Shown in pieces: positions 2,916 to 30,551 of a DNA stretch of 64,000 bases. The number at the start of each line of letters is the position of its first letter. Position 1 is the first letter of the stretch. Source of the stretch: Nocardioides humi (GTDB taxonomy: Bacteria > Actinomycetota > Actinomycetes > Propionibacteriales > Nocardioidaceae); the NCBI RefSeq assembly GCF_006494775.1, contig NZ_CP041146.1, forward strand, positions 3,100,001-3,164,000. Reading direction: 5' to 3'. The position numbers and the translations under genes were made by a program. The notes under the pieces are model-generated. The model ran no database searches. It was not told the origin of the DNA and saw only the letters and a program-made list of their open reading frames with translations.

Positions 2916-2954
2916 ACTGGGCGATCAGTATACTCACGGCTTGCTGCAGTGCAA
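2916..2954 (-). promoter_or_regulatory. Regulon operator a with promoter of the binding-protein operon
   Basis: The palindrome ACTG-N6-CAGT (2916-2929) extends to a TATAC arm at 2930-2933. On the minus strand it contains a -10 TATACT (2927-2932), with a -35 TTGCAC (2949-2954) 16 bases away. It sits in the divergent space between the binding protein and the luciferase-like gene, so one bound repressor could cover both. It is one of eight related sites in the island. Confidence 0.7.
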
Positions 2955-3004
2955 TGGCCTTTCCTGGGCCCTGGGGCAGGCCACCGACATGAGAGGCAAA
3001 CGTC

Positions 3005-4018
3005 ATGGAGCTGAGCCTGAAGTTCGACCTCCGTGCTCCGACGTGGGGAGCGTCGACAGCTGATCTGTACGCCGCCACCCTGGACATGTGCGAGTGGGCT
3101 GACGGTGTCGGATTCCGAACGGTTCGACTGCTGGAGCACCACGGTAGTCCCGACGGCTACCTGCCGTCGCCGCTGCTGCTTGCATCGGCCATCGCTGCCC
3201 GTACTCGGCGCCTGCGGGTGGCTGTGCGCGCGCTAGTGCTCCCTTTGCACGACCCCCTGCGCGTGGCGGAGGACGTCGCGGTCCTTGATCTGGTCAGTGC
3301 GGGGAGGTTCGACCTCGTTGTCGCCGCAGGATACGTGCCCTATGAGTTCGCCATGTTCGACCGCGACATCGCCGACCGAGCGCGGCTGCTCGAGGAGTTC
3401 GTCGACGTCCTCAAGCAGGCGTGGGTGGGTGCGGAGTTCGACTACCGGGGACGGCGAGCGCGGGTCGCGACGAGGCCCTACTCCCAGCCACGCCCGCGCA
3501 TTGTGCTGGGTGGTTCGTCGGCGGCCGCAGCACGTCGTGCGGCACGGATCGCCGACGGTTTCGAGCCCACGCAGTACTCGCTCTACCGGGTCTACCTCGA
3601 GGAATGCGCGCGGTTGGGTGTGTCGGCGGGACCGCCGATGCCCCCTCGCCCGCGCTGCCAGTTCCTCTATGTCGCAGCGGACGTGGATCGCGCCTGGAGC
3701 GAACTCGCCCGGCATCTCCTCCACGAGTCCAACTCCTACGGACGCTGGCTTGCGGACGCCGGGACGACGCCGCTGTTTCGTGAGGCGCGTGACATCGATG
3801 ATTTGAGGGCGTCGGGGAACTATCGGATCGTCACACCGGAGGAGTGTGTTGCACTCGCGACCGAAGTCGGCCCGGCCTGTGAGCTCGAGCTCCATCCCCT
3901 GGTCGGCGGGCTCGACCCCGGGCTGGGCTGGCGCAGCTTGCATCTGTTCGCCGACCGGGTCGTTCCGGCCCTCCGCGAGGCCGGCATGCTCATGACCCCT
4001 GCTGATCCCTGCGCGTGA
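3005..4018 (+). CDS. Luciferase-like (LLM-class) flavin-dependent oxidoreductase
   Basis: This is a 337-residue F420- or FMNH2-dependent monooxygenase/dehydrogenase of the bacterial-luciferase TIM-barrel superfamily. It shows VRALVLPLHDPLRVAEDVAVLD (residues about 76-97), SAGRFDLVVAAGY near 100 and IVLGGSSAAAARRAARIADGF near 165, the standard LLM landmarks. Length is normal. The start ATG at 3005 follows a GAGAGG ribosome site. The gene is divergent from the binding-protein gene across operator a and converges on the SDR gene with only 9 bases between stops. It is a candidate for an oxygenation or hydride-transfer step on the island's substrate; cofactor and substrate cannot be read from sequence. 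Confidence 0.85.
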   Translation: MELSLKFDLRAPTWGASTADLYAATLDMCEWADGVGFRTVRLLEHHGSPDGYLPSPLLLASAIAARTRRLRVAVRALVLPLHDPLRVAEDVAVLDLVSAGRFDLVVAAGYVPYEFAMFDRDIADRARLLEEFVDVLKQAWVGAEFDYRGRRARVATRPYSQPRPRIVLGGSSAAAARRAARIADGFEPTQYSLYRVYLEECARLGVSAGPPMPPRPRCQFLYVAADVDRAWSELARHLLHESNSYGRWLADAGTTPLFREARDIDDLRASGNYRIVTPEECVALATEVGPACELELHPLVGGLDPGLGWRSLHLFADRVVPALREAGMLMTPADPCA

Positions 4019-4027
4019 TCCCCGAGG

Positions 4028-29969: not shown

Positions 29970-30451
29970 GGGCCCTTGTACTGCCCGTCAGACCAAGGTA
30001 GGACGTCGCGGCGATGCTCGGCATCGACTAGCTCTACGCGCAGTCTCCCGTCGAGCAGGTGATGATAGCTGAACATCTGGGTCTCGCCGCTCGCGTTTAC
30101 GTGGCTCACCTCTCGCTGGCCGCCCGCGTCCAGCGAAGCTAGCGAGTGGTTGAACTGATCCGACCAGAACCCAACGTGATGGAGCGCGCCTTCGGGGCCG
30201 GCTACCCAAGGTGTTCCCGGAATCTCCTGAATCAGCTCCAGCATGAGCCCGTCGCGGGAAGAGCGAGAGTAGGTGTAGAGCAGATCGACCACTGAGATGT
30301 GTCCGTCTTGCTCGACCCGCAGGGGCGCGCGGTGAGCAGGTGCCCAGGAGAGCCCTAGCTGCTCGCTCAGCTCCGCCGCAGCCGTTTCCAGCCGCGGAAC
30401 GACGATGCCGACGTGATAGGCGGACAGGGACGTCACTGCGCACTGACCCAC
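29966..30451 (-). CDS. VOC-superfamily (glyoxalase/dioxygenase-fold) protein
   Basis: This is a 161-residue vicinal-oxygen-chelate protein. AYHVGIVVPRLETAAAEL opens the first beta-alpha-beta-beta-beta unit with His 13, MLELIQEIPGTPW follows, and GALHHVGFWSDQFNHSL opens the second. RVELVDAE supplies a Glu. It may be a methylmalonyl-CoA-epimerase-like isomerase or a small hydrolase. The GTG at 30449-30451 lacks a clear ribosome site; GTG 30434-30436 is an alternative. It is first gene of the korA-fdxA-korB transcript from operator h. Confidence 0.75.
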   Translation of the reverse strand: MGQCAVTSLSAYHVGIVVPRLETAAAELSEQLGLSWAPAHRAPLRVEQDGHISVVDLLYTYSRSSRDGLMLELIQEIPGTPWVAGPEGALHHVGFWSDQFNHSLASLDAGGQREVSHVNASGETQMFSYHHLLDGRLRVELVDAEHRRDVLPWSDGQYKGP

Positions 30452-30510
30452 GCGGGGGTGGCTGAACCTAGCTTGATGGCTTGCTCCGAGGCGCTCAAAT
30501 CTTCTCCTAT

Positions 30511-30551
30511 CCTGAATGCCCAGTATACCTTACTGCAATGACCGTGCACAA
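30511..30551 (-). promoter_or_regulatory. Promoter of the VOC-korA-fdxA-korB operon with regulon operator h
   Basis: Operator CCTG-AATGCC-CAGT (30511-30524) followed by ATAC. On the minus strand -10 TATACT (30522-30527) and a fair -35 TTGTGC (30546-30551) are 18 bases apart. It ties the oxidoreductase to the rest of the island's regulon. Confidence 0.68.

Follow-up and report, generated by a model that had tools for sequence, protein, structure and literature searches.

In a 64-kb stretch of the Nocardioides humi genome (the window, positions 3,100,001 to 3,164,000 of its one 6.22-Mb contig), eight copies of a two-armed motif are very probably the operators of a single regulon, which has the same extent as an island of catabolic genes. 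A protein with two fused TetR modules, encoded at 5090-6340 and here called the double TetR, would repress the promoters of this island, its own included, until a metabolite releases it. The sites, their specificity, their overlap with promoters, the conservation of their spacer, and their recurrence with the regulator family were computed directly.

Eight copies of one putative operator

All eight sites listed in the first-pass annotation were recovered by a pattern scan of the window, as 20-mers starting at 2913, 5031, 6406, 6488, 14156, 15950, 21844, and 30508; the positions given earlier mark the ACTG, 3 bp to the right of these starts. As had been claimed, each copy fits the motif TANACTG-N6-CAGTNTA with one mismatch (four sites) or two (the other four). 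With at most one mismatch, the motif occurs 4 times in the window versus 0.02 expected. The loose pattern with up to three mismatches was only modestly enriched (9 versus 2.94 expected, with 9 reached in 2 of 100 shuffles), and it is therefore the matrix and the genome that carry the case for operators. When a 22-bp matrix was constructed from the eight sites, as the first-pass annotation had proposed, it scored these same sites at 26.5 to 33.7 (19.0 to 31.5 with each site left out in turn), while the next best place in the window reached 8.3 when the sites' own reverse readings were set aside. The 20 kb upstream of the window contain no operator site by this matrix, the best place having 7.7 bits; thus, the regulon ends at 2913 on the left side.

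Specificity of the putative operator

The operator is exclusive within its own genome, with no equally good copy elsewhere. CTGN6CAGTNTA has seven genome-wide matches, all of them island sites (reversed-pattern control, 4), and TACTGN6CAGTATAC with at most one mismatch has six, all in the island. At two mismatches of the latter pattern, 7 of the 12 among the matches listed fall outside the island, and at up to three mismatches the 112 genome-wide matches lie below the 270 of the reversed control and are therefore background. When 19 outside loci from this list were rescored with the matrix, the best reached 13.2. The 18-bp consensus of the eight sites, ACTGKGCAGTCAGTATAC, had eight matches in 6.22 Mb with up to three mismatches, namely, the eight sites, versus none for its control; since this consensus was derived from the sites, its information is the absence of further matches. 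Equally good sites in unrelated genes, which the first-pass annotation had named as the result that would speak against it, thus do not occur in the 6.22 Mb at this threshold. In 57 related genomes, where a scan had also been suggested, the same search gave 29 matches in 19 genomes, all with exactly three mismatches and at most four per genome; the reversed pattern was commoner (63 matches, table sum), so these matches represent background.

Spacer conservation and promoter overlap

The operator is approximately 22 bp long and has a conserved center, with the oriented consensus nATACTGgGCAGTCAGTATAC. The earlier description of two arms around an N6 was incomplete, as the spacer is not free: in their best orientation the eight spacers contain 5.45 bits, whereas two nulls of 1,000 trials each averaged 2.23 and 2.44 bits and did not exceed 3.80 and 4.01, respectively. 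The island spacer, GGCAGT, is directional (5.45 bits oriented versus 2.96 symmetrized), which suggested asymmetric recognition as a family rule, as in Mce3R of Mycobacterium tuberculosis. This rule was rejected because the spacer in 37 sites of relatives (described below) is nearly symmetric, with 4.96 of 5.89 bits retained on symmetrization. Arm strength also failed as an orienting cue: it left the spacer unordered in 35 of the relatives' sites (163 of 2,000 random orientations were as good) and in the six of eight island sites with unequal arms (1,323 of 2,000). Given the near-symmetric spacer and this failed ordering, we do not claim asymmetric recognition. An arm-imbalance statistic (1 of 2,000) was discarded because selection for the arm sum biases it.

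In all eight sites, the end toward the gene is a TAnnCT -10 hexamer; the sites at 21844 and 30508 have a TAnnCT at both ends. Because TAnnCT belongs to the motif, it is not an independent test; the -35 element is. A TTG lies 16 to 18 bp from the TAnnCT at 2913 (-), 6488 (+), 14156 (-), 15950 (+), 21844 (+), and 30508 (-), in each case on the strand of the adjacent downstream gene, so that the claim of at least five such promoters is borne out with six of eight. The chance of such a TTG is ~0.05 per site, giving a P of ~4e-7 for six of eight.

The individual sites stand as follows. Operator 1 (2913-2932, + strand) lies in the gap between the binding-protein operon (-, start 2851) and the LLM oxygenase gene (+, 3005), with a minus-strand promoter (-10 TATACT, 2927-2932; -35 TTGCAC, 2949-2954). 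Operator 2 (5031-5050, +) precedes the genes for a ferredoxin (5006-4815, -) and an SDR (start 4813, -), and operator 3 (6406-6425, +) precedes the double TetR gene, predicting autoregulation; both carry a minus-strand -10 TATACT lacking a TTG -35. Operator 4 (6488-6507, -), 82 bp from operator 3, precedes the P450 gene and has a plus-strand promoter (-35 TTGACG, 6466-6471; -10 TACACT, 6488-6493). Operator 5 (14156-14175, -) is located in the divergent gap between the acyl-CoA ligase/importer operon (-) and the gene for a thiamine diphosphate (ThDP) enzyme (+), with the promoter on the minus strand (-10 TAAACT, 14170-14175; -35 TTGACG, 14192-14197). Operator 6 (15950-15969, -) precedes the CaiB series (+; -35 TTGACA, 15928-15933; -10 TAGACT, 15950-15955, both +). 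Operator 7 (21844-21863, -) precedes the amidohydrolase gene (+, 21888), and its plus-strand promoter has -35 TTGACC at 21821-21826, within the upstream coding sequence, and -10 TAGTCT at 21844-21849. Operator 8 (30508-30527, -) precedes the VOC/KorAB operon (-, start 30451), with a minus-strand promoter (-10 TATACT, 30522-30527; -35 TTGTGC, 30546-30551). Revised gene starts for the binding protein (2851) and the ferredoxin (5006) place the sites upstream of both genes. The statement that the sites always precede an operon or occupy a divergent gap is accurate in general, with the exception that operator 7 shares the last 3 bp of the isochorismatase coding sequence. The sequence GTGATACAC, read on one strand or the other, occurs at 2900-2908 and 14145-14153, directly beside two operators, both in divergent gaps, and is possibly an extra half-site or a site for another regulator.

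Part of one arm is explained by the -10 hexamer, and the motif could be read as a repeat element or an island promoter consensus that has no dedicated regulator. We regard this as extremely improbable: conservation extends over both arms and the spacer, the promoter does not include the far arm, and in other genera, where the gene content is partly different, the same word is clustered next to double TetR genes.

The double TetR protein and its relatives in other genera

The 416-amino-acid chain holds two TetR modules, each with a TetR_N and a TetR_C_24 domain; PF00440 (TetR_N) scored 108 bits over two stretches, compared with a cutoff of 24. The predicted model matches Mce3R (PDB 9b7y) over 351 of 416 residues, with 19% identity in that superposition. 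The protein thus shows the features of the double TetR class, i.e., fused modules and, in the model, a single-chain fold with two helix-turn-helix (HTH) motifs like that of 9b7y. Besides the query, 25 homologues were found, 24 at 47 to 80% identity and one at 32%, among them three from Streptomyces and one from Rhodococcus opacus. The 57 related genomes contain no double TetR of comparable similarity (the best match was 35% over one half), and in a class sample of 394 genomes only the own genome had a match at E values of ≤1e-60 and ≤1e-50, probably the same sample both times. A scan of genome contigs gave 27 loci, in three of which (L050 to L052) one match spans the whole chain.

Gene context was compared in relatives with double TetRs of ~30 to 35% identity, at four loci: two in Acrocarpospora pleiomorpha, one in Acrocarpospora catenulata, and one on a plasmid of Rhodococcus sp. 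DMU1, which has two such genes. The 24 other loci from the contig scan served as controls, and the matrix of the eight sites was used unchanged. At ≥12 bits, it found 18 matches in 86.6 kb of double TetR loci versus 5 in 433.7 kb of control loci. The mean number of matches was 1.2 with scrambled matrices (maximum, 8 in 200) and 0.97 with shuffles (maximum, 4 in 40). Genome-wide, the pattern CTGN5TCAGTATAC with at most one mismatch was clustered: 6 of 8 matches fall within 57 kb of 11.8 Mb in A. pleiomorpha, 7 of 9 within 43 kb of 10.3 Mb in A. catenulata, and 6 of 6 within 32 kb of 716 kb on the DMU1 plasmid (binomial values of ~3e-13, 8e-16, and 2e-7, respectively, for intervals chosen post hoc). 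By contig ranges, these stretches include the double TetR genes of A. pleiomorpha and of the plasmid, and that of A. catenulata falls ~4.5 kb outside its stretch. A retrained matrix gave 18, 20, and 7 sites, respectively (45 in total), of which 41 lie no more than 300 bp from a gene start predicted by rough gene calls, a count that has no null. Many of the Acrocarpospora sites are paired, 51 to 113 bp apart, and no rule of helical phasing was seen by eye in Acrocarpospora pairs of 51 to 106 bp or in the 82-bp pair of the island. In A. catenulata, 20 predicted operators, many of them paired, occupy ~46 kb (G718:C138:110,703-156,436); as a single-regulator island, this stretch would be larger than that of the window.

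When 29 island queries were compared with 180 kb of operator-bearing Acrocarpospora and Rhodococcus loci (tblastn, E ≤ 1e-4), the double TetR was found at all loci. The link between sites and double TetR drawn in the first-pass annotation is supported by the recurrence of this operator next to double TetR genes, both in two species of Acrocarpospora and on a plasmid of Rhodococcus. Common enzymes at these loci, not all of them at each, were SDR, P450, ligase, aldehyde dehydrogenase, CaiB, metallo-beta-lactamase-fold hydrolase (48 to 50%), and LivFG, which show a catabolic theme common to the island and these loci. The ThDP enzyme, KorAB, amidohydrolase, VOC protein, and others had no counterpart in the 180 kb. 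A second TetR_N protein is encoded within the island (24985-25683, SbtR-like), and the sites might serve this protein or a host regulator, the double TetR being a bystander. This is very unlikely. The single TetR had no match in the same 180 kb, and two sites stand before the double TetR gene. A resident lineage regulator is an unlikely user because the 57 related genomes have no consensus match with fewer than three mismatches; an exact 13-base pattern, found in 1 of 341 family genomes (the own genome), argues the same way, as a weak test that fits only the site at 2913.

Several results weigh against control of the island by the double TetR through these sites. The own genome as a whole was searched with patterns, not with the matrix. 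The five control matches of ≥12 bits are spread over 4 of the 24 control loci, with a best score of 17.1. The reversed control was as frequent as the pattern itself in Acrocarpospora (10 versus 8 in A. pleiomorpha and 11 versus 9 in A. catenulata; 0 versus 6 on the plasmid; control positions are not listed), so that the signal there is the clustering and not the number. The matrix behind the 45 sites was retrained on matches from the same loci, and 8 of the 45 are flagged within a predicted open reading frame (ORF) by the rough gene calls. The Foldseek superposition on Mce3R has a root mean square deviation of 9.9 over 407 columns (TMq, 0.70), and the two modules are therefore placed somewhat differently than in Mce3R. 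Finally, two of the eight promoters (5031 and 6406) have no recognizable TTG -35, and the ThDP and LLM genes, across two divergent gaps, have no clear promoter within the operator. These last points would fit a double TetR that binds the sites as an activator or represses only some of the promoters, which we consider unlikely. A -10 at the operator end in eight of eight sites, with a -35 in six, is the layout of occlusion; both Mce3R and DarR have been described as repressors, KstR2 is titled one, and TetR proteins are mostly repressors according to PMC3511530.

Separately, lone matrix matches of 17.1 bits (L059:9684) and 14.8 bits (L060:6992) were observed at other TetR-like loci in Comamonas and Hassallia, where a single TetR may share a half-site with the double TetR operator.

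The island and its neighborhood

A Pfam scan covered 30 ORFs of the window (1-1675 left out). The gene for a periplasmic binding protein (Peripla_BP_6 by domain scan; 1676-2851, -) is followed downstream by MaoC- and CitE-like ORFs, named from translations and the first-pass annotation rather than from Pfam. Next are a luciferase-like (LLM) oxidoreductase (3005-4018, +), the ferredoxin, named by translation, with the SDR (4028-5006, -), the predicted double TetR repressor (5090-6340, -), and a cytochrome P450 (6524-7750, +). A minus-strand block at 7836-14083 encodes a reductase, a branched-chain-type ABC importer, and the acyl-CoA ligase (12497-14083), and the ThDP-dependent enzyme (14211-15911, +) belongs to the acetolactate synthase/2-hydroxyacyl-CoA lyase superfamily. 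The CaiB series (15982-21846, +) comprises a CaiB-type CoA transferase, MaoC, aldehyde dehydrogenase, a CoA transferase/hydrolase, and isochorismatase; it is followed by the amidohydrolase and a metallo-beta-lactamase-fold hydrolase (21888-24385, +), the single TetR, and a KorA/KorB 2-oxoacid:ferredoxin oxidoreductase with a VOC protein (26564-30451, -). KorA alone of 10 proteins passed a curated NCBIfam cutoff (subfamily model).

The first 36 kb have a lower G+C content (2-kb values of 0.64 to 0.69) than the sequence beyond (0.67 to 0.77), and an insertion sequence-type transposase pair lies at 30882-32110. Together with the lack of a comparably similar double TetR in the 57 related genomes, these features make the stretch from ~2.9 to 30.5 kb look like an acquired catabolic island.

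The CaiB-type CoA transferase (15982-17261) is divided between two overlapping ORFs that differ in frame and match profile positions 1 to 185 and 189 to 365, a frameshift that is either genuine or a sequencing error. The reductase (7836-8983) likewise appears as two overlapping minus-strand ORFs that are out of frame with each other, 8483-8983 for the N part (by translation) and 7836-8585 for the C part, an apparent second frameshift in the island. Beside the transposase pair, a DUF1016/YhcG PDDEXK nuclease (32427-33179) is a PADLOC candidate defense gene (PDC-S02), and a DISARM-type defense set (DrmMI, DrmA, DrmB, and DrmC) is located to the left of the window (genome positions 3,080,125-3,090,694; L048:125-10694) and includes a cytosine methyltransferase that matches DrmMII more weakly.

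Proposed mechanism

Binding, repression, and the inducer are inferred as follows. The double TetR, with two nonidentical modules in one chain, would fold like Mce3R into a single-chain pseudodimer that covers the ~22-bp operator, with one HTH on each arm (ATACTG ... CAGTAT). The bound repressor would occlude the -10 hexamer and, because this hexamer makes up the operator end that faces the gene, block RNA polymerase at the island promoters, including its own. An intermediate of the degraded compound would then release the repressor and switch on the whole island as a unit, and one protein probably controls the entire island.

We also consider a broader view, to which we give about an even chance. 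The double TetR clade would be a portable control module that travels with catabolic islands across genera (Nocardioides humi, Acrocarpospora, and the Rhodococcus plasmid) and places the same 22-bp operator before the operons of whichever pathway they carry, with 7 to ~20 operators per island and with the Acrocarpospora pairs perhaps bridged by a repressor dimer; two different HTHs in one chain would read a nearly palindromic operator, unlike in Mce3R. The analysis gives a second double TetR clade a concrete predicted operator, predicts a complete regulon, and supplies independent test systems from other genera. The candidate switch is exclusive in its genome, and operator scanning offers a way to find further catabolic islands.

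Comparison with known systems

One module of the island protein has KstR2, FadR, and AibR, regulators of acyl-CoA or steroid catabolism, as structural neighbors. These are single-module homodimers with other operators. The solved complexes of AibR with isovaleryl-CoA and FadR with stearoyl-CoA (by their titles) suggest a CoA-thioester inducer for the island protein, and, with an acyl-CoA ligase and CoA transferases in the regulon, a CoA thioester from the island pathway is the most likely candidate.

DarR, a TetR family protein that responds to c-di-AMP (PMC10636190), has the half-site ATACT/AGTAT in common with the island operator, and Lys and Tyr occur at the same HTH spacing in both proteins, as judged by eye. 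However, DarR is a single TetR on ATACT-N4-AGTAT (PMC10636190), whereas the island has ATACT-N8-AGTAT and a fused double protein.

Among double TetR repressors, of which 204 members are predicted in Actinomycetes, the structure has been solved for Mce3R (PMC11667970). Among the open-access papers listed, we found no published operator for any double TetR except Mce3R and no work on this operator or clade. The Mce3R sites are described as 25 bp long, asymmetric, and without direct palindromes (PMC11667970) and, together with the EthR motif, as larger and not classical palindromes (PMC4482099). In contrast, all eight island operators have two matching dyad arms, a comparison made by description and not by letters. 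For Mce3R, two sites 53 bp apart and homodimers that hold two duplexes are described (PMC11667970); the pair at 6406 and 6488, with 62 bp between the sites, resembles this layout, so bridging of the two sites by the repressor is possible. No Mce or YrbE domain was detected among the 30 scanned ORFs, unlike the mce/yrbE targets of Mce3R, and the island regulator differs further in having eight operators that fill an acquired island. Thus, the island regulator shares the double TetR architecture of Mce3R and is Mce3R-like in this respect, but it is not Mce3R and has an operator of its own.
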